In this document: positions 10,492-23,245 of the stretch, piece after piece
Layout of the letters: the number at the start of each line of letters is the position of its first letter
Numbering within the stretch: position 1 is the stretch's first letter
Assembly (NCBI GenBank): GCA_945830055.1
Contig: CALZXH010000021.1
Coordinates: forward strand, 1 to 32,886
DNA length: 32,886 nucleotides
Origin: an uncultured Prevotella sp.
GTDB taxonomy: Bacteria; Bacteroidota; Bacteroidia; Bacteroidales; Bacteroidaceae
Direction of reading: 5' to 3'
Notes under the pieces: generated by a model
What the model was told of the DNA's origin: nothing
Database searches by the model: none
Seen by the model: the letters and a program-made list of their open reading frames with translations, nothing else
Position numbers and translations under genes: made by a program

Positions 10492-11127
10492 ATGAAACAT
10501 CTTAAACCCCTTTTTACCGTATTGTTCAGTACATTCTTCCTGCTTCAGGTAGCTGCACAGGACGTTTATACCAAAGCCCCGGCAGACAAGAAGACCGAGA
10601 AAAAGGCTGCCAAATGGGCAAAGAAAGGAGCCTGGCGACAGGGCTTCACTGCTGCCGGTCCTCATGCCTCTGTCAACCTCAGTGAGTTCTACACCCAGTA
10701 CCAGCGCAACACCGCCCAGTGGCAAGCCATGTTCCGTTGGTTGGCCACCCACGACTTGCTCACCATTCCTGCCGGCAAGCATCCCATTGAGGGCACGTCC
10801 TTGGTGGTCAGTGTGGAGGACAGCGAGAATGGTCCTCTTGCCAAGCGCCGCAGTGAAAGTCACTACCATCATATCGACTTCCAGTACGTGGTGCGGGGTA
10901 CCGAGCGGTTTGGTATCATCGAGCACAACAGTTCCAAGCCCAACAGCAAGTACAAGCCCGATGTGATGCACTACGACTATGATTTGGAGAAAGCCATCTT
11001 CCACGACTCCACCCCCGATGCCTTTTTCCTTTTCTTCCCCGATGACTGGCATATCGCCAAGGTTCAGACCGACAAGGACGACCAGCATATCCGTGTGATA
11101 GTGGTCAAACTCGACTATGTGGAGTAA
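10492..11127 (+). CDS. Secreted YhcH/YjgK/YiaL (DUF386)-like protein
   Basis: 211 aa; signal peptide MKHLKPLFTVLFSTFFLLQVAAQ; SHYHHIDFQYVVRGTERFGII and FFLFFPDDWHIAKV resemble the metal-binding beta-sandwich core of the family. Confidence 0.75.
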   Translation: MKHLKPLFTVLFSTFFLLQVAAQDVYTKAPADKKTEKKAAKWAKKGAWRQGFTAAGPHASVNLSEFYTQYQRNTAQWQAMFRWLATHDLLTIPAGKHPIEGTSLVVSVEDSENGPLAKRRSESHYHHIDFQYVVRGTERFGIIEHNSSKPNSKYKPDVMHYDYDLEKAIFHDSTPDAFFLFFPDDWHIAKVQTDKDDQHIRVIVVKLDYVE

Positions 11128-11256
11128 GTAGGAAAGCTGTTATTTTTCAGATACTCCACCGACAAACTATTGATTTTTGGCTATTGTATGGTTGCCATGA
11201 TGGCTATTCATATTGTATCTGCATGACTGTTATAATATCACAAGGAATGCGTAGCT

Positions 11257-11350
11257 GTTTTTCGTTCACCACTGCTGAACGATCGTCTAACAGTGGTGAA
11301 CGATCGTTCAGCGTCGTTGAACGATCGTCCAGCGACGCTGAACGAAAAAC
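11257..11350. repeat. 94-nt nested palindromic (three-way-junction-like) repeat element
   Basis: GTTTTTCG [TTCACCACTG-16nt-CAGTGGTGAA] CGATCG [TTCAGCGTCG-16nt-CGACGCTGAA] CGAAAAAC; TGAACGATCGT repeats at 11276, 11297 and 11318, with a partial TGAACGA at 11339 (21-nt period). Confidence 0.9.
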
Positions 11351-11754
11351 GGATGCTGTATCGTTGTACAATTACATTGCCTTAAGTGTATATTTCCAGA
11401 CAGTTATCCTTGTTACTTTATGACAGTCAAGCATCAGTCAAACAATCTAAGGGATAATAAACAACGTGAATTCGATGAATAACGAATCCATCTAACACAG
11501 GTAAAATAGGTAATAATCTCCGAAATCTATATACCAAAAGTATTGGGAATTAACCGTATTTTTGTAGCCGAGATGATACCTGTTAAAACTGCCAATAAAG
11601 TCTGTCTATTCGAGCTTTTCCGTATGAGCTGGGTGTTGTCTAAGCTGCCATATTGATGGCAACAATGGGAACTTCAGCCCAATCCTTTTTCATTAAAAAT
11701 GAGTTTATCGTTTAAATTGCAATTATGTACCTAAAAAAACGGAGAAAAAATTTA

Positions 11755-11783
11755 TTGAGTTTAGATTATTTTTAATACATTTG
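11755..11783 (+). promoter_or_regulatory. Candidate Bacteroidota-type promoter for the susC-like gene
   Basis: TACATTTG (-7 box TAnnTTTG) at 11776-11783, with TTG at 11755-11757 about 18 nt upstream; AT-rich context; implies a leader of about 190 nt before 11982. Confidence 0.6.
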
Positions 11784-11981: not shown

Positions 11982-14900
11982 ATGAAAAAACTCGCGAAGC
12001 ATTATTCGGGCATTCGCTTTACCAATGCCACCATGGCAGTGGGACTTACTGCACTTCTCTGCATGCCTCTTCAGGCAAATGCCGAGGAAAACTCTTCTGC
12101 AGCCCCCGTTGCCCAGGCGGTTCAGCAGAGCCGTACAGTGAAAGGACAAGTGGTTGATGAAATGGGAGAACCCATGATTGGCGTTACCGTGCGTGTAAAG
12201 GGTACCGGCAAGGGAACCATCACCGACCTGGACGGTAGATTTACCATTCAGGCAGAGGCAAACGCTACTCTTGAGATATCCTTTGTGGGGTACAAAACGC
12301 AGACTTTCAAGGCTTCCAAGACCAGCTACCAGTTGAAGATGGAACTGGACAACACCGGTTTGGACGAAGTAGTAGTTATCGGTTATGGTACCCAGAAGAA
12401 GCGCGACCTTACAGGTGCCATCACCTCCATCAAGAGTGAGGACATCACCGCAGCGCCGCTGCCCAACCCCATCGAGTCGCTTCAGGGAAAGGTGGCAGGT
12501 CTTGATATCACCCGTTCTTCTGGTCAGGCTGGTGCGTCGAGCAGTATTAAGCTGCGTGGTACACGTTCGCTCATGGCCTCGGAAGACGGCAATGATGCCC
12601 CGCTGGTGCTGGTGGACGGACTGCCCGGAAGCCTTTCTACACTGAATGCCAACGACATCGAGAGCATCGAGGTGCTCAAGGATGCCGCTTCGACCGCTGT
12701 CTATGGTTCTTCAGGAGCCAATGGTGTGATTATCGTTACCACCAAAGGTGGAAAAGAGGGCAAGGCAAAGGTGAGCCTCAATGCCTATCTCGGTATCAAC
12801 GGCTGGTCCACGGTGCCTGAGGTGTACCACGGAGATTCGTTCTTCAACCTGGCACGCACCGCGCAGCAACAGTCTGGCCACTACATTTCCGATGAAGAGG
12901 TGTACAACCAGGAGGTCTATCAGGCTTTGCTCGCAGGCAAGGACATCGACTGGGCAGATGCCCTGTTGCGCACCGGCATCACCCAGAACTATTCGCTCTC
13001 GGTGAGTGGTGGTACGGAGAAGACCAAGGCGTATATGTCGCTCAACTTCTCGGGTGAAGACGGACAGTATGTCAACGACAACTACCGCGTGTACTCCACC
13101 AATATCAAGATAGACCACCAGTTGCGCAGCTGGCTTACCATCGGTACCAATATCCAGGGCAGCTTCACCCACAAGAACAGCGCGTATGCCAAACTGGAGA
13201 ATGCCCTGATTTCGCGCCCCATCGGTTCGCTCTATGACGACGAGGGCAATGTGAATGCCTTCCCTGTTGCTGGTGATGCCTCTACGGTGAGCCTGTTGCT
13301 CAACAACCACAGCAACTACCGCAACAACAGCCAGAACACCAATATCTATCTGAATCCCTACATCCGCATCAACCCCATCAAGGGACTTACCTTTGAGAGC
13401 CGCCTCAGTCTGGCACTCTCCTACAGCAAGGCCAACAGGTTCCAGGGCATCGGATCGTACCAGTATTATGATGCCAACCGCTCTGCCGACGGTGTCAGCA
13501 CCAATGCCAACGTTACCGCCTCGGTGGCAAACACCAACGCCTACAACTACAAGTGGGAGAACATCCTGACCTATAACTTCAAACTTGGCGAAGACCATGA
13601 CTTCACCGTGACCGGTGTTACCTCATGGAACCACAACCGCCGCGAATACACCTATGCCGGTTCCAACACCATCACCGCCAATGAATACCTGTGGCACAAA
13701 CTCGATGCCGGACAGAACCAGAACGCACAGTCATGGTACAGGATGTCCAAGGGGATGGGCTTCGTGGGCCGTCTCACCTATTCCTATCAGGGCAAGTACC
13801 TGGCATCCGCATCCGTGCGTCACGACGGTTCTTCACGCCTTGCCAAGGACAACCGTTGGGACACCTTCCCCGCTTTCTCCTTGGGATGGCGCATTTCTGA
13901 GGAGGGCTTCATGAAGAGCACCCGCGGATGGCTCGACAACCTGAAACTGCGTGTAGGCTGGGGTGTCACGGGTACCGCCTCTATCTCAGAATACCAGACC
14001 CAGTCGGAGCTGGAGCAGTCATACATGATATTGGGTAACCAGACCCTCGTATCCTACAGCTATCCACAGGGCATCGTTGACCCGAATCTGGGTTGGGAGA
14101 AATCATATAACACCAATATTGGTCTGGATGCCAACTTCCTTGGCGGACGCATCGAGCTGAACGCTGACTATTACTACACCAAGACCAAGGACATCATCTG
14201 GACCAGTCTGGTTCCTGTGACCAACGGCGGCTACAATTCAAGCAGCCAGTACACCGTGACCACCAACATCTGTGAGTCGCAAAACAAGGGTCTGGAACTC
14301 TCGCTTACCGGTCGTCCGTTCGTGGCACGCAAGGAGGGAGACTTCAGCTGGACCATCAACGCCACCTATACCAAGAGCAGTGAGAAACTGACCAAGTTTG
14401 CTGCCGAAGACGGTACTACCCAGTATATCAACGGCAACAAGATACTGAAAGAGGGCGAACCCATCAACTCATTCTATGACTATAAGCTCAACGGCACCTG
14501 GAAAACATCGGAGGCAGCCGAGGCTGCCATCTTCTATGCGCAGCCCGGTGACTTGAAGATTGACTGTCCTGACATCAGCCGTCAGGTGGATGCCGATGGT
14601 ACGGTATATTATGTGGGCAAGGATGCCGAGGGCAACGATGTGCGCTATGACGCCAGCAATCCTTATGACGCCACACAGGCCAAGCAGGTGCTGGGCCACC
14701 AGCAGCCCGACTGGACCATGGGTCTCAAGAACACCTTCACCTACAAGGGCTTCGACCTGTCGATATATCTCTACTGGCGCTTCGGACAGATGATCAACTA
14801 TAGTATGCTGGGACGCTACAATCCGCAGGGAACAAGCAACTTCCCCACCTACTTTGACTATTGGACTAAAGAGACCGGTGACGAGAACCATGTATATCCC

Positions 14901-15185
14901 GCCCTCAACTCCAACAAGCCTCTCAACAAGTACAGCGGATGGACCGGACTCACCTATGTGGACGGCTCTTTCTTCAAGGTAAAGAACATCACTCTGGGCT
15001 ACACCCTGCCCAAGAACTTCATCAAGAAACTCGGTATCGAGAACCTGCGTGTCTATGGCACCATCACCAACCCCTTCGTGGTGGCAAAGAGCAGTCTGCT
15101 GAAAGACTACGACCCGGAAATGGCAGGCAGTCTGGACTATCCTCTCACCAAGCAGATGGTATTCGGTGTGAATATGACGTTCTAA
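11982..15185 (+). CDS. SusC/RagA-family TonB-linked outer membrane protein
   Basis: 1067 aa; carboxypeptidase-D-like domain (VKGQVVDEMGEPMIGVTVRVKGTGKGTITDLDGRFTI), TonB-box-like DEVVVIGYGTQKKRDLTGAI, plug domain, C-terminal F. Confidence 0.97.
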   Translation: MKKLAKHYSGIRFTNATMAVGLTALLCMPLQANAEENSSAAPVAQAVQQSRTVKGQVVDEMGEPMIGVTVRVKGTGKGTITDLDGRFTIQAEANATLEISFVGYKTQTFKASKTSYQLKMELDNTGLDEVVVIGYGTQKKRDLTGAITSIKSEDITAAPLPNPIESLQGKVAGLDITRSSGQAGASSSIKLRGTRSLMASEDGNDAPLVLVDGLPGSLSTLNANDIESIEVLKDAASTAVYGSSGANGVIIVTTKGGKEGKAKVSLNAYLGINGWSTVPEVYHGDSFFNLARTAQQQSGHYISDEEVYNQEVYQALLAGKDIDWADALLRTGITQNYSLSVSGGTEKTKAYMSLNFSGEDGQYVNDNYRVYSTNIKIDHQLRSWLTIGTNIQGSFTHKNSAYAKLENALISRPIGSLYDDEGNVNAFPVAGDASTVSLLLNNHSNYRNNSQNTNIYLNPYIRINPIKGLTFESRLSLALSYSKANRFQGIGSYQYYDANRSADGVSTNANVTASVANTNAYNYKWENILTYNFKLGEDHDFTVTGVTSWNHNRREYTYAGSNTITANEYLWHKLDAGQNQNAQSWYRMSKGMGFVGRLTYSYQGKYLASASVRHDGSSRLAKDNRWDTFPAFSLGWRISEEGFMKSTRGWLDNLKLRVGWGVTGTASISEYQTQSELEQSYMILGNQTLVSYSYPQGIVDPNLGWEKSYNTNIGLDANFLGGRIELNADYYYTKTKDIIWTSLVPVTNGGYNSSSQYTVTTNICESQNKGLELSLTGRPFVARKEGDFSWTINATYTKSSEKLTKFAAEDGTTQYINGNKILKEGEPINSFYDYKLNGTWKTSEAAEAAIFYAQPGDLKIDCPDISRQVDADGTVYYVGKDAEGNDVRYDASNPYDATQAKQVLGHQQPDWTMGLKNTFTYKGFDLSIYLYWRFGQMINYSMLGRYNPQGTSNFPTYFDYWTKETGDENHVYPALNSNKPLNKYSGWTGLTYVDGSFFKVKNITLGYTLPKNFIKKLGIENLRVYGTITNPFVVAKSSLLKDYDPEMAGSLDYPLTKQMVFGVNMTF

Positions 15186-15219
15186 ATGCAACAATCCAAT
15201 GAATTCAAACCAACGAAAT

Positions 15220-17286
15220 ATGAAAAAGCAATTGATATATATGGCTGTCGGATTGGCGTGTGCCACCGGTCTGACATCATGCGAGCTCGATGAATACAAC
15301 CCCTCTGCAGGAGCTTCCACCATTGAGTCGTACAACACCTGGAAGGGTCTGCAGGCAAAATGTTACTCCACCCTGTACCACGAACTGTATTCCAAGAGCG
15401 ACTTCCTGTTCCTCTCAGAGTGCGGAACAGACCTGTGGCTCAATCCCGCTGCTACGGAATACTCCAAGGAGACAGTCTATTACACCGGATTAGGTGTGGA
15501 GCGCGGCGAGCCCAGCAAGGTATGGCAGCAGGCTTACTCCGTGATTGCCACCTGCAACAGCGTCATCCAGGAAGCAGGTAATGTGAGCAACGGGGATGCC
15601 AATGCCATCAGGATTCTCACTGCAGAGGCGAAGTGCATCCGTGCCTTCATGCACCTTACACTCGCCACCTACTTCGGTCCCATCCCCCTGTGTACCACAG
15701 AGGTGGGAGTGATGGACAAGGCTCCCGTGAGAAACTCGCTGGCCGAGGTATATCAGTCTATTACCACCGACTTGAAAGAGGCTGCTGCTGATCTGGAGGT
15801 GCAGCCGTATGAAGACAACTATGCCCGCGTTACCAAGAAGACTGCCCTTGGACTGCTGGCAAGGGCATACGCCCAGGGCGCAGGTGAGAACCTGAGTGAA
15901 GACGGCAAATCCTACTGGCAGCGTGCCAAGGAGGTGGCAGAGGACCTGATAGCCAACAGCAGTGCCTACGGCATGTACCTCTATCCCGATGTGTCTGACC
16001 TCTGGGCGACAGCCAACAACCGTAACAACAAGGAAGCGCTGTTCACTGCAGCCGGACTGGACGCTACCGGTGTGGATGCTGCCATGGCAGGCTACTACTT
16101 CAATGCCACCTGCTATCTTTACGGCTATACCCGTACCGATCCCAACTGTCTGCAGGACATATACACCACACAGAAGTCGCTCAACTATCTTCTCGGTTCC
16201 CACAACCAGGGTGGTGTGATGGCTCCCACCAAGCACGCCATCGATGTATATGGCGACTGGGACAAGCGCTATGAGAATACCTTCCTTACCGCTTTCGGTG
16301 CCTTCACCGAAGAGGGTGTTTCTTCCGTGGTGCGCAAGCGCATCAAACTCACCTCGTCCATGTGCAACCGCTATGGCATCAACCAGGCATACGTTGATAA
16401 GTACATCAATCCATGCGTGCATCTGAAGAGGGTAACCCAGCCGGGCGGTGAGCAGATAGTGGCAGTGGGTATGTACAAGAAAGGCGATCCTAATACCATC
16501 GAGCCTACCAAGAATCCTTTGGTGGTTGACATGCCCCTTGACAAGGACGACGACCGCTTCTCTATCTACCTGTCCAAGAATGACCTTGGCTATGCCGATC
16601 CCATTACTGACAGCGACGATGATGACGATGATGAGGATGAGACACCCGTCATTCCCAACGATGGCAAGGACGGAAAAGACCGTCGCCCCTACTTCTGCAT
16701 CAATATCAGCGAGCTCTTTGATGCCGACGGCAACTACCGTGAGAATGCCTATCGCTACCGTGAGGGGGCTCCCGCTACCAAGGCTAACCAGCTGTTCCCC
16801 TGTCTTATCAAGTACAACTGGGTGTTTGACGGAGCCACACGTCACTTGGGTAGCGACAACTATGACTTCCGCAATGGCGACATCTACATCATGCGTGCCG
16901 CAGAGGTGTATCTCATCGCCGCAGAGGCAAACGTGATGCTGGGCAATGCGGCTGCCGCCAAGCAGTACCTGAAACCGTTGCGCGACCGTGCCTGCCGTAC
17001 AGGTTATACCGTGCCCACAATCACCGACCCCACCGAGCAGGAAATTCTTGACGAGTATGCACGTGAGTTCTGCGGTGAGCACATGCGCTGGCCTGTACTG
17101 AAGCGTCACCGTGCATCTGGCTTGTTCAAGCAGGCATTGCAGAACTACAACAAGAAAGCTGCTGCAGGCTTCAACGAAGACATCCACTATTGCCGTCCTA
17201 TCCCGAAACTCTACCTCGACCAGATTTCCAATGCTGCCGAGTTCGGAGACAACGGTTATGGCTATATAGGCGTCAAGGGGTATTGA
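15220..17286 (+). CDS. SusD/RagB-family nutrient-binding lipoprotein
   Basis: Lipoprotein signal MKKQLIYMAVGLACATGLTSCELDEYNPS; RIMRAAEVYLIAAEA-type motif (IYIMRAAEVYLIAAEANVMLGN); directly after susC. Track start 15199; ATG at 15220 gives a cleaner signal peptide. Confidence 0.95.
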   Translation: MKKQLIYMAVGLACATGLTSCELDEYNPSAGASTIESYNTWKGLQAKCYSTLYHELYSKSDFLFLSECGTDLWLNPAATEYSKETVYYTGLGVERGEPSKVWQQAYSVIATCNSVIQEAGNVSNGDANAIRILTAEAKCIRAFMHLTLATYFGPIPLCTTEVGVMDKAPVRNSLAEVYQSITTDLKEAAADLEVQPYEDNYARVTKKTALGLLARAYAQGAGENLSEDGKSYWQRAKEVAEDLIANSSAYGMYLYPDVSDLWATANNRNNKEALFTAAGLDATGVDAAMAGYYFNATCYLYGYTRTDPNCLQDIYTTQKSLNYLLGSHNQGGVMAPTKHAIDVYGDWDKRYENTFLTAFGAFTEEGVSSVVRKRIKLTSSMCNRYGINQAYVDKYINPCVHLKRVTQPGGEQIVAVGMYKKGDPNTIEPTKNPLVVDMPLDKDDDRFSIYLSKNDLGYADPITDSDDDDDDEDETPVIPNDGKDGKDRRPYFCINISELFDADGNYRENAYRYREGAPATKANQLFPCLIKYNWVFDGATRHLGSDNYDFRNGDIYIMRAAEVYLIAAEANVMLGNAAAAKQYLKPLRDRACRTGYTVPTITDPTEQEILDEYAREFCGEHMRWPVLKRHRASGLFKQALQNYNKKAAAGFNEDIHYCRPIPKLYLDQISNAAEFGDNGYGYIGVKGY

Positions 17287-17295
17287 TCCCAAGCC

Positions 17296-17344
17296 CTCTC
17301 TTATCGGAGTGCAAGGACTTGCACCATGCACTCCGATGAGAGAG
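17296..17344 (+). terminator. Stem-loop after the susD-like gene
   Basis: CTCTCTTATCGGAGTGCA / TGCACTCCGATGAGAGAG (18-bp stem, one U-G wobble), 13-nt loop; no strong T tract, so processing or partial termination is possible. Confidence 0.6.
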
Positions 17345-17414
17345 TATTTACATAAGTATCGAAAACAAGAGAATCTCTATTTATTCAATCTATTATTAAC
17401 TTAAAACAAACAAC

Positions 17415-19034
17415 ATGAAAAAATTATTTACTTTTGTTGCAGCTGCCCTGATGTCGGCATCTGCATTCGCACAGGCACACTGTGAGTGGACTGTTGAACA
17501 GCTTCCCCAGCAGGTGTTTGCCGGTCAGGCTGCTGCTGTTGAGGCAGGATTTGTGACCATGTGGTGGGCTCCCGACACCAGCGAAGGCGGTGTGGGTGAT
17601 GCTGCTCCCGTGAAATGGATGGGTATGCCTGCTTGCGATCTGATCAACACCGCCAACATCAAGGTTTCTCTGCCTTTGGATTACAACTATGTGAGCGTAG
17701 GTAACAACAAGTACTCTGGCGTGAGCTATGCTTACAAGCTCATCATGGGTATGAACAACTCTACCCGCGACGGTATCGACCCGCTGAACTTTGCTGAGGG
17801 TTTGACCAACAACTCTTATATTCGCAAGTCTGGTAATGCAGACCAGAAGCCCGAAGGCTCTGAGACAGGTTATGTAATCAACGACGCCATCATCAAGATC
17901 AAGGTGAAGTCGGCCAACTATGGTGCCATCACACTTACCTACAACCGTGGTGGCAACAACTCTGCCATGTATGTGGTTGACTCTACCAAGACACGCAACA
18001 TTCTTTGGTCTGTGACCCGCTGCCCGGATGATAACGTGCAGAACCATGTGGCACGTTTCGGCGTGGAGCCCGGACATACCTATTATGTAATGGCTTCTGA
18101 GAAGGGTTCTGTAGAACTCTACGGCATCGAGTATGACGAGTGCACCGACGAGGATTATGAAGTGCTTGTTTCTGAGGCAAACAGCACCGACCTCTGGACT
18201 GCCGCACAGCTTCCCAACGAGGTGTTTGCCGGTCAGGCTGCTGCCGTTGCTGCCGGCTATACCACTATGTGGTGGGCACCCGACACCAGCGAAGGTGGTG
18301 TGGGTGATGCTGCTCCCGTGAAATGGATGGGTATGCCTGCTTGCGATCTGATCAACACCGCCAACATCAAGGTTTCTCTGCCTTTGGATTACAACTATGT
18401 GAGCGTAGGTAACAACAAGTACTCTGGCGTGAGCTATGCTTACAAGCTCATCATGGGTATGAACAACTCTACCCGCGACGGTATCGACCCGCTGAACTTT
18501 GCTGAGGGTTTGACCAACAACTCTTATATTCGCAAGTCTGGTAATGCAGACCAGAAGCCCGAAGGCTCTGAAACAGGTTATGTAATCAACGATGCCATCA
18601 TCAAGATCAACGTTCCTGCTGACGGTAATTATGGCCGCGTGATTCTGAACTACAACCGTGGTGGTAACAACTCTGCCATGTATGTGGTTGACTCTACCAA
18701 GACCAACCAGGTGCTGCAGACCACTACCCGTTGCCCGGACGATGCTGTGAAGACACATGCTGCCATCTTCAACGTACAGCCCAACCACACTTACTATGTA
18801 ATGGCTTCTGAAAAGGGTTCTGTAGAGCTCTACGCTATCGGTTACTGCTCTGCTGCAGATGCCAAGTATGCTGCATTGGGTACCTCTACCGGTATCAAGA
18901 CCATTGAGAGTGTGGCTAAATCTGCTGTGAACAACAACATGATTTACACCATCAGCGGTCGTATGGTAGGTACTAACAGAGACGCTCTGAGCAAGGGTCT
19001 CTACATCCAGAACGGCAAGAAGTTCGTGAAATAA
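17415..19034 (+). CDS. Secreted protein with two near-identical ~230-aa repeats and a T9SS-like C-terminal tail; function unknown
   Basis: Signal peptide MKKLFTFVAAALMSASAFAQ; repeated WTxxQLPxxVFAGQAAAVxAG...MASEKGSVELYxIxY; C-terminus IYTISGRMVGTNRDALSKGLYIQNGKKFVK. Confidence 0.85.
   Translation: MKKLFTFVAAALMSASAFAQAHCEWTVEQLPQQVFAGQAAAVEAGFVTMWWAPDTSEGGVGDAAPVKWMGMPACDLINTANIKVSLPLDYNYVSVGNNKYSGVSYAYKLIMGMNNSTRDGIDPLNFAEGLTNNSYIRKSGNADQKPEGSETGYVINDAIIKIKVKSANYGAITLTYNRGGNNSAMYVVDSTKTRNILWSVTRCPDDNVQNHVARFGVEPGHTYYVMASEKGSVELYGIEYDECTDEDYEVLVSEANSTDLWTAAQLPNEVFAGQAAAVAAGYTTMWWAPDTSEGGVGDAAPVKWMGMPACDLINTANIKVSLPLDYNYVSVGNNKYSGVSYAYKLIMGMNNSTRDGIDPLNFAEGLTNNSYIRKSGNADQKPEGSETGYVINDAIIKINVPADGNYGRVILNYNRGGNNSAMYVVDSTKTNQVLQTTTRCPDDAVKTHAAIFNVQPNHTYYVMASEKGSVELYAIGYCSAADAKYAALGTSTGIKTIESVAKSAVNNNMIYTISGRMVGTNRDALSKGLYIQNGKKFVK
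17571..17901 (+). repeat. Copy 1 of intragenic direct repeat core
   Basis: 331 bp aligned to 18279-18609 (offset 708 bp) with 3 mismatches by eye. Confidence 0.95.
18279..18609 (+). repeat. Copy 2 of intragenic direct repeat core
   Basis: See copy 1; the differences are synonymous (GGC/GGT, GAG/GAA, GAC/GAT). Confidence 0.95.
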
Positions 19035-19065
19035 TCAAGGTTTTACATACTACTTATTGTTCATG

Positions 19066-19100
19066 TCGGGTGCCTCATAACGGGGCACCCGATTCTTGTT
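19066..19100 (+). terminator. Rho-independent terminator
   Basis: TCGGGTGCC-TCATAACGG-GGCACCCGA followed by TTCTTGTT. Confidence 0.75.
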
Positions 19101-19226
19101 TGACCAGCAGTTTCTTCACTTCGATGTTTTGGAGGATAGCAATGCCATGTTACCGGTAAATCACCTGCTATCGGGTGGAAAAACTATCCGAAGTTGGGGG
19201 AATTTCTGTTTTTCTTTCCTGAAGAA

Positions 19227-19258
19227 TTGTGCGGATGAAGTAATTAGTGTTATATTTG
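19227..19258 (+). promoter_or_regulatory. Candidate promoter for the pectinase gene
   Basis: TATATTTG (TAnnTTTG) at 19251-19258, with TTG at 19227-19229. Confidence 0.55.
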
Positions 19259-19321
19259 CAGTGTCTTTGACTTATTTCCGGTGGGTTTTCAGTACCCACC
19301 TTCACCTAAAACATACACCTG

Positions 19322-22300
19322 ATGAAAAGTTATCATTTAAGTTCTATCCTCTTTTACGCATGGCTGGCAGTATTTGCCATGGCCGGAATGCCTGTACAGG
19401 CAGAAATAGAAGGCAGCTTGGATCCTGCCTCTGTAGTGGAGAAATGGAGTAACAGCTCCACCTACCCCAAAGTGATTGACATCAATTTCAGCGACGAGAT
19501 GTGGCCGGGGCATCTGTGGACAGGTGAAACCGGCAAGGACTGTCCCGAATGGGCAGACAGTGCATACGTGAATGCCATCCTGCGTGTTCCTGCCAATGGT
19601 GGCAGTGAGGTTACCTATCCCGTGCTGTTCCACAACTGTACCTTTGCCAACAAGACCAGCTACAAGGGTTATGCAGGTGCCACCTCTGCCTTTTGCCGCC
19701 AGTACTATTTAGGCGAGAACAAGACAGGTAACAGTGTCACCACCTATAATAACTGGACGGTGCCTGGGCATACCAACTATCTGGAAGACAATATTAAATA
19801 TGATGCGGATAATACCCCTATCTACGGTGAGGCAGGCTTTGTGCAATTCTGCCGCAACGAGGGTTATATTGATGTGGCAGCCAAAAAGCGTGTCAGTCTG
19901 CATGGATGGATGGAGATAGACCATATTCCCTACGTGGAGCGCATACAGTGGTCGTGGTCTTCCACCTCATGGGGCAGGGGCATCAAGTGTGACATCAAGA
20001 TTGGGGATGAAGACTGGAAGCCGCTGGTGTGGATGGGTTCCAACCAGCATAAGGCGGGCTATACCGTGTTCAGCGACCAGGGCTATTTCATGGAGAATGT
20101 GATTGATGCCCATGACGTGTCCATCCGCTGGCGCGTGTGGGACGGCGACAACGGACTTACGCTGGTGCAGACAAAGCCCGACGGCACTTCGGCCTTTGGA
20201 GTGGCTGTAGATACCGTTGCCCAGCAGCAGACCGCCCGTGTACACAAGATACAGATTTTCGGTACTGCCATTACCGCAGAACAGGCACAGTATGCCACCG
20301 ACCATCCTGTGGGCAATGTAGGCACACTGAGCGACCTGAATGCCGGAGGCGGTGAGAAAGTGGACGATGCTCCCGATGCCAATGCTCCTGTGGTGCTGCT
20401 CACCGTAGCACAGGATGGCACGGGCGACTATACCAAGGTGCAGCAGGCCATCAATGCCGTACCCAACGGCTCGAGAGGCATCATCTATATCCGTCCGGGT
20501 GTGTACGAAGAGAATATCTATTGCGGTACCAAAACCAGTCATGACAAGTACATTAGTCTGGTGGGTGAGAATAAGGAAACTACCATCCTCACTTCTTCGG
20601 TGGATCGGGGCAGCAGCAATCCTTCGAACACCTATAACGACTGTGCCGCACTGAATGTATATACCACCCGCTTCTATGCCGAGAACCTCACCATCCGCAA
20701 TACGGCAGGCAATGTGGGACAGGCAGAGGCGCTCTTCACCTCAGGTGACGCCCACCTGTTCAACAACTGCGTGCTCAGCGGGTATCAGGATACCTATAAG
20801 GCAAACATCGGGTCGCGCGGATATTTCACCGGCTGTACCATTATCGGTGCCACCGACTTTATCTATGACAGCGGTCTGGAATGGTTTGAGAACTGTGAAA
20901 TACGCTGTGTGAAGGGAGGTGGATATATCACTGCCGCCGCTGACTGCGGACTCACACTCACCCGTACCCTGCATCCCGAACTCAGTGTCAGTCCTTTCTA
21001 TGCCGGTCTGTTCTTCCGTGGCTGCAATGTGGTGGCAGACGAAGGTGTGGCAGACGGTGCCTACTATCTTGGCCGTCCGTGGAAAGAGAAGTGCGGTACC
21101 ATGTTCCTGCAGTGTACTTTAGGTAGCCATATCAATGCCAAGGGATGGAAGGAGTGGAGCGGAACAGAAGCCAACTGCTGCTATATGGAATACAAGAATG
21201 TGGATGCTTCAGGCAATCCCGTGGATGTGTCTTCCCGTGTGTCGTTCGGTCATCAGGCTACCGATGCCGAGGTGCAGGCATACATGAATCCCGAATTCCT
21301 TTTTGACAAGTTCTCCAGTGTGCCGTTTGATTACGAGTATATCCTGGAGGGTGCAGCTGCTCCTACAGGCTTTGAGGCCAATGGCAATGCCTTTACATGG
21401 CAGAGCGACAGCAAGGCAGCCGGATACATTATTTATAAGGATGGTCAGTTTGTCGCTTTGGTTAGCGAGCCCTCGTTTGCCACAGACGGCAGTGATGCTG
21501 CCTACACTGTGAGTGCGGTGTCTCGCCACGGTGTGGTAGGCAAGGCTGTCAAGATGGAGGAGAAAGGTGAACTGATTGCATTCCCCACCGCACAGGGCTT
21601 CGGCAAGTATGCTACCGGCGGACGTGGAGGAAAGGTGGTTACCGTTACCTCTTTGGATGATGTGGCAGGACAGAAGGGAACATTGCGCTGGGCTTTCACG
21701 CAATATCCTGACGAGCCTATTACCATTGTCTTTGCTGTGAGCGGAGAGATACAGTTGAAAGACCCCCTTAGCGTGAAGCGTGCCGACTGGACCCTTGCCG
21801 GACAGACAGCACCGGGAGAAGGCATCGTGCTGTCGCGCAACAAGGTGAACTTCGGAGGTTCGCAGAACTTCATCGTGCGCAACATCCGTTTCCGCAGCGG
21901 TGCCACCAATACAGCCGGAGAGGTGCTTGCCGACCAGGCATGCGGTGTGGAAAACTGTAACAACTTCATCTTCGACCACTGCGTGTTCGGTTGGTCTGTG
22001 GAGGAAAATATGAACACACAAGACAGCCACTTCCTCACCGTGCAATACAGTATGGTGCACGAGGGTCTCTACAATTCAGGACATCCCAAGGGAGCGCGTG
22101 GTTATGGTTCGCAGTGGGGCGGCTCGCCTGCTACCTATCACCACAACCTGTTGGCACACAACAAGTCGAGAAGTCCGCGTTTCAACGGCGCCCGTGGAGA
22201 TGATTATGTGGTGTTCATGGAGTATGCGAACAATGTGAACTATAACTTCAGTGCCCGTGGTACCTATGGTGGAGAGAATACAGCCGACATCATGAAGTAT

Positions 22301-23245
22301 AACGGGGTGAACTCGGTGCATGAATGTAACTTTATGAACAACTATTACAAGGCAGGCAAGATAGCCACGGCATCGAGCAGCAAGTTCCTGGTGTCGAGCT
22401 ATGCGCGTGCAGGTGCCACCTCATGGGCTCCTGCGAAGTGGTATATCAACGGCAATGTGATGGAGGGAAATACCACAGCCACCAACGACAACTGGAAAGC
22501 AGTGGGTGTGGAAACCTATACATTGGATGATATCCGGGTGGATGAGCGCATCGTTACCGCCACTCCATACAACAAGTATTCTATAGATGGCGGAAGGGGA
22601 GTGTATGTGCCCGAACGCTACATGCTGCAGGATATTGCTACAGCGCAGGATGCCTATACCGATGTGGTGAACCATGCCGGAACCATCAACCGCGACAAGG
22701 TGGAGCAACGTATTGCCAATGAGGTACTCACCGGTACATGTACCTATGGCGGTGCTGCCATAGGGGCAGGAAAAGGTATCATCGACACCGAGAACGATGC
22801 GGAAGGGTTCTATGCCTATTCTACCGACTATACCGTGCCTGCCGACACTGACGGTGACGGAATGCCCGACGAGTGGGAAAACAAGCACGGACTGAATCCC
22901 CAAGTGGCTGACCAGAACCTTGTGAACCTGGATGGATATACCGCTTTGGAAGTGTATCTCAATGAACTGATGGGCGAGAAGATGGACAGCGATTTCACCA
23001 CTGCCATCACGAGTGTGATGATGACACCTTCGCAGATGCTTTACGATGCAGGCAGTGCCACTCTGCATGTGGGTGAAGAAACCGTGGGCAGCCGACTGAG
23101 CGTATATACCGCTGACGGGCGCCTGGTGAAAAGCCAGCAGATTACCGACAGACAGACCCATTTAGGCGACATGCCGCAAGGATTGTTGCTGATGCAGGTG
23201 GAGGGTAAAACCATCTGTCCACGAACGCTCAAGGTGGTACAATGA
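19322..23245 (+). CDS. Bifunctional pectinesterase (CE8-like) / pectate lyase (PL1-like) with T9SS-like C-terminus
   Basis: 1307 aa. CE8 motifs GVYEEN, QAEAL, GYQDT, ATDFIYD, LGRPW; FN3-like linker; right-handed beta-helix lyase section with TGGRGGKVVTVTSLDD, HHNLLAHNKSRSPRFNGARGD; Ca-binding-like DTDGDGMPDEWE; C-terminal LSVYTADGRLVKSQQI...GLLLMQVEGKTICPRTLKVVQ. Confidence 0.9.
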   Translation: MKSYHLSSILFYAWLAVFAMAGMPVQAEIEGSLDPASVVEKWSNSSTYPKVIDINFSDEMWPGHLWTGETGKDCPEWADSAYVNAILRVPANGGSEVTYPVLFHNCTFANKTSYKGYAGATSAFCRQYYLGENKTGNSVTTYNNWTVPGHTNYLEDNIKYDADNTPIYGEAGFVQFCRNEGYIDVAAKKRVSLHGWMEIDHIPYVERIQWSWSSTSWGRGIKCDIKIGDEDWKPLVWMGSNQHKAGYTVFSDQGYFMENVIDAHDVSIRWRVWDGDNGLTLVQTKPDGTSAFGVAVDTVAQQQTARVHKIQIFGTAITAEQAQYATDHPVGNVGTLSDLNAGGGEKVDDAPDANAPVVLLTVAQDGTGDYTKVQQAINAVPNGSRGIIYIRPGVYEENIYCGTKTSHDKYISLVGENKETTILTSSVDRGSSNPSNTYNDCAALNVYTTRFYAENLTIRNTAGNVGQAEALFTSGDAHLFNNCVLSGYQDTYKANIGSRGYFTGCTIIGATDFIYDSGLEWFENCEIRCVKGGGYITAAADCGLTLTRTLHPELSVSPFYAGLFFRGCNVVADEGVADGAYYLGRPWKEKCGTMFLQCTLGSHINAKGWKEWSGTEANCCYMEYKNVDASGNPVDVSSRVSFGHQATDAEVQAYMNPEFLFDKFSSVPFDYEYILEGAAAPTGFEANGNAFTWQSDSKAAGYIIYKDGQFVALVSEPSFATDGSDAAYTVSAVSRHGVVGKAVKMEEKGELIAFPTAQGFGKYATGGRGGKVVTVTSLDDVAGQKGTLRWAFTQYPDEPITIVFAVSGEIQLKDPLSVKRADWTLAGQTAPGEGIVLSRNKVNFGGSQNFIVRNIRFRSGATNTAGEVLADQACGVENCNNFIFDHCVFGWSVEENMNTQDSHFLTVQYSMVHEGLYNSGHPKGARGYGSQWGGSPATYHHNLLAHNKSRSPRFNGARGDDYVVFMEYANNVNYNFSARGTYGGENTADIMKYNGVNSVHECNFMNNYYKAGKIATASSSKFLVSSYARAGATSWAPAKWYINGNVMEGNTTATNDNWKAVGVETYTLDDIRVDERIVTATPYNKYSIDGGRGVYVPERYMLQDIATAQDAYTDVVNHAGTINRDKVEQRIANEVLTGTCTYGGAAIGAGKGIIDTENDAEGFYAYSTDYTVPADTDGDGMPDEWENKHGLNPQVADQNLVNLDGYTALEVYLNELMGEKMDSDFTTAITSVMMTPSQMLYDAGSATLHVGEETVGSRLSVYTADGRLVKSQQITDRQTHLGDMPQGLLLMQVEGKTICPRTLKVVQ

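Follow-up and report, generated by a model that had tools for sequence, protein, structure and literature searches.

It is known that RAYT transposases or MITEs derived from IS elements account for most of the dispersed palindromic repeats of bacteria. Besides these, the Correia repeat enclosed elements of Neisseria (PMC2649163) are small intergenic inverted-repeat elements near genes, which can bind a DNA-bending protein, helically phased protein sites of 21-22 bp, some of them inverted, make up the iteron and operator arrays, and the Gram-positive SOS box (LexA/DinR) has the form GAAC-N4-GTTC. In the order to which the present DNA belongs, the nearest published analogue is given by the BrickBuilt and 464/PgRS MITEs of Porphyromonas gingivalis, which occur in 10-20 intergenic copies per genome and are restricted to one species as judged by BLAST (PMC4596501).

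Here we analyse a palindromic element in a window of 32,886 nucleotides (the whole stretch of DNA that was studied) from an uncultured Prevotella sp. The first-pass annotation had parsed the 94-mer at 11257-11350 into two hairpins inside a closing stem. Letter for letter the parse is correct, but the natural unit is better described as four tandem 21-bp repeats than as two hairpins, with the two hairpins being units 1+2 and 3+4, and the CGATCG palindromes that had been noticed in the loops and at the centre, which are indeed present, are the junctions between the 21-bp units. The core unit is (GTTC/GTCT/GTCC)-N9-GAAC plus GATC, with the general form GTTC-N9-GAAC-N4, and four such units lie at 11264-11343 inside the closing stem. 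In the register of 21 they read GTTC ACCACTGCT GAAC / GTCT AACAGTGGT GAAC / GTTC AGCGTCGTT GAAC / GTCC AGCGACGCT GAAC, with GATC between them and GTTTTTC...GAAAAAC around the whole; most arrays in other genomes are likewise bordered by A/T-rich closing inverted repeats. The repeated element is larger than the 94-mer, extending over ~270 bp (about 11166-11435), because the flanks are common to other copies. The features are as follows.

10492 to 11127, plus strand: upstream neighbour, YhcH/YjgK/YiaL (DUF386) protein (PF04074, E 1.4e-28)
11166 to 11435, no strand: whole dispersed element, from BLAST and the alignment of copies, with approximate edges as the copies fade gradually; homologous to copies on contigs C12, C9, C53, C24, C5, C99, C18, C97 and C79 of its own genome
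11166 to 11256, no strand: left flank, degenerate ~23-nt repeats facing outwards, reverse complement of AATAGCCATNNNGGCAACCATAC / AACAGTCATGCAGATACAATATG
11257 to 11263, no strand: 5' side of the closing stem, GTTTTTC, from the sequence
11264 to 11280, no strand: unit 1, GTTCACCACTGCTGAAC
11285 to 11301, no strand: unit 2, GTCTAACAGTGGTGAAC
11306 to 11322, no strand: unit 3, GTTCAGCGTCGTTGAAC
11327 to 11343, no strand: unit 4, GTCCAGCGACGCTGAAC
11344 to 11350, no strand: 3' side of the closing stem, GAAAAAC, from the sequence
11351 to 11435, no strand: right flank, common to C12, C9, C53, C5, C99 and C18
11982 to 15185, plus strand: downstream neighbour, SusC-like TonB-dependent receptor with Plug and CarboxypepD_reg-like domains

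The element starts 39 nt past the stop of yhcH, and the probable susC promoter motif, TACATTTG at 11776, lies well outside it. In the closest sampled species, G287, with 82% DNA identity over yhcH, the yhcH-susC order is kept and the promoter motif is conserved, while the element is absent from the yhcH-susC gap, giving an empty site. The distance from the yhcH stop to the promoter motif is 649 nt in the window versus 181 nt in G287, so that the gap of the window is ~470 nt longer, exceeding the 270-bp element, and more than the element differs between the two. It is also seen that a contig of G287 (its C99) ends in CTGTCTCTTATACACATCT, a Nextera adapter remaining in the public assembly. Downstream of the element, the region 11982-23245 carries susC-like and susD-like genes, then a secreted-type protein made of two nearly identical halves (17415-19034, an internal duplication of ~230 residues), then a 1307-residue protein that resembles, by eye only, a pectinesterase/pectate lyase fusion; the region looks like a pectin utilisation locus.

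In the assembly from which the window comes (120 contigs, 85.5% complete), the search gives further copies on contigs C12, C9, C24, C5 and C53, and the search with the flanks included adds those on C99, C18 and C97 together with a fragment on C79. The copies have flanks in common beyond the palindrome, and the distinct ones, whole or broken, can be counted only as ~8-10 because C24, C5 and C99 break off in the array at the contig end. The dispersed intergenic copies that had been named as support are found, in this genome and, as described below, elsewhere. The two stem spellings of the window, CCACTG/CAGTGG and GCGTCG/CGACGC, are recurring unit spellings common to the sister copies, and the copy on C53 has two units rather than four. 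Several single copies deserve description. On C97 (4029-4150) both flanks are present with a clean gap in place of the core, as would result from a deletion or from a copy that never had it; on C18 (905-1085) the same flanks enclose, in place of the four-unit core, an unrelated hairpin, TGACACGGAA-AGGACA-TTCCGTGTCA; and on C79 (8380-9517) the left flank stops beside an IS110-family transposase gene, where the copy is cut. IS elements targeting palindromic repeats are known (PMC1525189). Another short repeat, of 45 bp with 96% identity, is common to C9 (6647-6691) and C53 (9731-9775). The C53 copy was also considered as an insertion into a DUF4143 gene, of which there is a weak Pfam remnant only (E 0.076), and this is not used as evidence. 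Note also that, since three contigs of this assembly end inside arrays, the arrays break short-read assembly, which is a warning for assemblers.

These copies bear on two other readings. The first is that the array encodes a small repeat-containing protein, as 21 bp corresponds to 7 codons and a frame is open at 11244-11420. In C21 and C12 it can be read through the whole array, but there is a stop in C5 and frameshifts in C9 and C53, the core is lost in C97 and C18, and there is no Pfam match, so that with the open reading frame not conserved this reading is rejected as almost certainly wrong. The second is that the element is a usual MITE, i.e., a deletion derivative of an IS that was moved by the transposase of that IS via terminal inverted repeats, the palindrome array being a passenger, as in BrickBuilt/PgRS of Porphyromonas. 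Dispersed short non-coding copies, common flanks, the size, the intergenic placement and the empty site are all consistent with this, and so is the resemblance of the left and right flanks to imperfect inverted repeats. However, the aligned copies of this genome, as inspected by eye, show no sharp common ends and no target-site duplication, and their inverted flanks are composed of repeats of a 22-23-nt unit rather than being a terminal inverted repeat. Moreover, the same core is present in many species with unrelated flank spelling, which implies that the array is no chance passenger. We therefore consider the usual MITE to be rather unlikely. The suggestion of the first-pass annotation that the 94-mer is a structured mobile repeat stands as far as its being dispersed, intergenic and structured is concerned, with the mobility being probable.

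BLAST of the 94-mer gives no match in 60 relatives, and BLAST of the right flank in 299 congeners gives two weak matches only (G009 and G245, E 0.004 each), which are discounted because such an E is expected by chance over 299 genomes, with the one in G009 lying apparently within coding sequence. The exact flank pattern has no match in GTDB and IMG/VR, and BLAST against plasmids and phages returns nothing save 40 bp of a Sphingomonas phage (E 6e-3), taken as chance. A weak match in G153, when inspected closely, follows this plan but spells it differently, GTTCCGCAGTGCGGAAC. The spelling-free motif GTTC-N9-GAAC-N4-GTTC-N9-GAAC occurs in 14 of the 398 genomes of the genus, versus 1 of 398 for the reversed control; when up to 2 mismatches are allowed, the number of matches is 7-36 in array-bearing genomes, where the control gives 2-13, and 0-3 in array-free genomes. 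If 3 mismatches at most are tolerated, the 3-unit motif is found in 45 of 398 congeneric genomes, but the reversed control is found in at least 7 and some of the 45 are clearly due to chance (G392, G170, G268 and G391), so the true share is roughly a tenth of the genomes of the genus. In GTDB, the genomes with exact three-unit arrays include strains of Segatella copri, Prevotellaceae of the rumen, MAGs of Bacteroidaceae and one of Parabacteroides. In these scans the period of 21 bp and the GTTC/GAAC anchors are fixed, and families with other anchors would be missed. With the reversed control CAAG-N9-CTTG at period 21, 6, 5 and 2 matches are obtained in G133, G174 and G205, respectively, which may hold arrays with other anchor letters. 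The 3-unit matches in Planctomycetaceae, Nostoc, Micrarchaeota, other distant groups and 7 viral contigs are set aside, because they are mostly long uniform satellites or have unrelated spellings. In Planctomycetaceae (5 loci) and Nostoc (4 loci) the satellites consist of 7-15 units of the 21-bp form GTTC-N9-GAAC and are probably unrelated to the Bacteroidales arrays. In the literature searched, mostly without subscription papers, no description of this repeat family was found, and its novelty is not proven.

The plan of the arrays is nearly constant. Of the 49 Bacteroidales arrays from the GTDB scan, four units are present in 41, three in 4 and five in another 4, and in three further genomes that were scanned with two-unit seeds, four-unit arrays amount to 11/13, 5/6 and 10/11; as the scan needs two to three good units at fixed 21 bp, both the phasing and the usual number of four are partly ascertained. 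There are about 5-15 arrays per array-bearing genome. With genes called by a simple codon-score method, none of the 49 arrays lies inside a predicted gene; 19 are in tandem gaps, 9 in divergent gaps, 9 in convergent gaps and 12 at contig edges. The convergent share (9 of the 37 placed) is, in raw counts, somewhat above the background of 9 in 78 gaps. The neighbours are diverse: 74 neighbouring genes carry 111 Pfam families, and no family is seen in more than three.

The arrays between convergent genes would be consistent with a bidirectional transcription terminator. But in 54 of 76 arrays there is no TTTT within 12 nt past the last unit on either strand, and in only 3 of 76 is it present on both strands; several arrays are preceded by a separate hairpin of the ordinary terminator type, and 9 of the 37 placed arrays are in divergent gaps. 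The earlier statement that the 94-mer is not an ordinary intrinsic terminator, made from its lack of T-runs, thus agrees with the T-runs not being conserved across the family, and on the T-run count we reject the terminator reading, which is very improbable.

Likewise, short, intergenic and genome-specific palindromes are what would be expected if a Y1 (RAYT-like) transposase had spread a REP/BIME or REPIN family, and Y1_Tnp (PF01797) is present in 8 of 16 array-bearing genomes. However, it is undetected in the other 8, among which near-complete G102, G103, G403 and G229 are found, and also in the window's own genome at its 85.5% completeness; in G069, where Y1 genes are present, ~56 kb separate them from the nearest array found. 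The GTAG at 11251-11254, which had been taken as similar to the mark of REP/RAYT elements, is absent from the other copies of its own genome, no conserved GTAG/GTGG head occurs in the family, and the copy number is that given above rather than hundreds of single units. The standard REP/RAYT link is thus not supported, and we regard this reading as quite improbable.

Now we consider whether the pairing of the palindromes is itself functional, i.e., whether the array works as a structured RNA (a 3'-UTR stabiliser, an RNase III target or a loop-loop kissing RNA). As RNA, the 94-mer folds with -52.4 kcal/mol, compared with -24.8 +/- 3.4 kcal/mol for 200 dinucleotide shuffles (z -8.1), and since none of the 200 is as low, the symmetry is not due to chance. 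The paired unit spellings in C21, C12 and C24 are also in favour of such an RNA. If pairing were selected, the halves of one unit would match better than halves taken from different units. Pooled over 9 genomes, the intra-unit pairing gives 686 matches versus 703 +/- 11 for within-genome permutation (P 0.95), and in four genomes it is significantly below permutation; the pairing of units 1-2 and 3-4 is equal to permutation (P 0.53) and that of units 2-3 is worse. A small intra-unit excess is present in the window's own genome (P 0.007) and in G066 (P 0.0035) alone, which may be real or may be a product of related copies with common descent. The compensatory changes that had been proposed for the two stems are thus not borne out across the family. 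Moreover, all three kinds of gap (tandem, divergent and convergent) contain arrays, and the Rfam search of the 94-mer returns no family at the gathering threshold. The functional RNA is thus unlikely.

By contrast, symmetry is evident at the level of the genome. Half-sites are spelled alike throughout a genome but differently from one genome to the next, with consensuses that include TAAA, ATAA, GTGG, CGCA, AACG and AGCG, and in 7 of 9 genomes the left half-site consensus is the reverse complement of the right, there being a near match in G066 and RUG10880 and a difference in RUG14468. From a symmetric consensus without pairwise covariation, we infer that the units are sites of a dimeric DNA-binding protein. 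Protein binding at phased sites was one option of the first-pass annotation, and it is the reading that the sequence data appear to favour.

The flanks have a regularity of their own. Read outwards in 116 flanks of 58 arrays, with mononucleotide shuffles as the control, both sides have a period of 22 nt (z 27.9 at lag 22, with echoes at 43-44), and A-rich stretches are located at ~19-26, 41-48 and 63-71 nt from the array. For the copies of the window's own genome, which are related, the period is 23 nt (z 5.5). Left and right flanks resemble each other by 0.45 versus 0.35 for shuffles, and within an array they are no more alike than between arrays of the same genome. With symmetry at several levels of flank and core, the whole element is two-fold symmetric.

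Based on these data, we think it rather probable that the palindrome of the window is one copy of a non-coding intergenic mobile element that carries four phased sites for a putative co-evolving dimeric protein. In this model, the core would be four dyad-symmetric 17-bp protein sites with an exact spacing of 21 bp (two helical turns), bordered to the left and right by 22-23-nt repeats that face outwards and contain A-rich stretches in phase. On either side of the dyad, the putative dimer would read one half-site (GTTC with its species-specific continuation), four dimers would stack along one face of the helix, and the flanks may be bent around them. As copies spread within a genome, the half-site spelling would become uniform within that genome and different between genomes. 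The putative protein could be a transposase or recombinase, or a chromosome-organising protein. The repeat family itself is established by the data. Speaking against the model are the small intra-unit excess in two genomes, the lack of clean terminal repeats or a target-site duplication to mark an insertion, the surplus length of the yhcH-susC gap over the element, and the C18 copy with its hairpin instead of the array. More tentatively, and with a good deal of doubt, the arrays may represent a new class of chromosomal docking site in Bacteroidales, with usually four dimer sites in 21-bp phase, outward 22-bp bent repeats and a fast-evolving reader protein with a spelling of its own in each lineage, which may serve chromosome organisation, segregation or the mobility of the element. 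What matters is that, in a genus of major importance in gut and rumen, a minority of the genomes carry one fixed plan whose half-site spelling changes from lineage to lineage; this pattern of plan and spelling implies a co-evolving putative DNA-binding protein, for which the motif, the named Segatella copri strains and the site lists provide a handle.

Finally, we compare the element with the known systems. The junction between its units matches the LexA/DinR box GAAC-N4-GTTC, but the arrays begin and end in whole GTTC-N9-GAAC units and not in whole GAAC-N4-GTTC boxes. The Bacteroidetes SOS repressors use CTAA-N5-TTAG or GGA-N5-TCC, and a LexA operator is rejected as the motif differs from these published ones (PMC8565304). 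The iteron and operator arrays adjoin a replication origin or a promoter beside the gene of their protein, whereas the present arrays are dispersed with no common neighbour. The Correia elements have defined terminal repeats and a TA duplication, and differ from the present element in sequence and plan. The REP, BIME and REPIN elements with RAYT (PMC2817692, PMC3116915) are alike in being intergenic, genome-specific palindromes with several per cluster; by contrast, the present family has no GTAG/GTGG head, no consistent Y1 transposase and a low copy number, with usually four units at 21 bp and 22-nt flank repeats. The BrickBuilt and PgRS elements share with it the order, the intergenic placement and the presence, within a dispersed element, of tandem repeats with a short unit (23 and 41 nt) (PMC4596501). 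Their repeat number varies freely and their units are direct rather than palindromic (PMC4596501), and they have terminal repeats of the IS5 type, which are absent here: the BrickBuilt ends GAGACC..GGTCTC do not occur in the inspected copies of the window's own genome. In the present element the core unit is a 21-bp palindrome, usually present four times, and the plan is found in many species.
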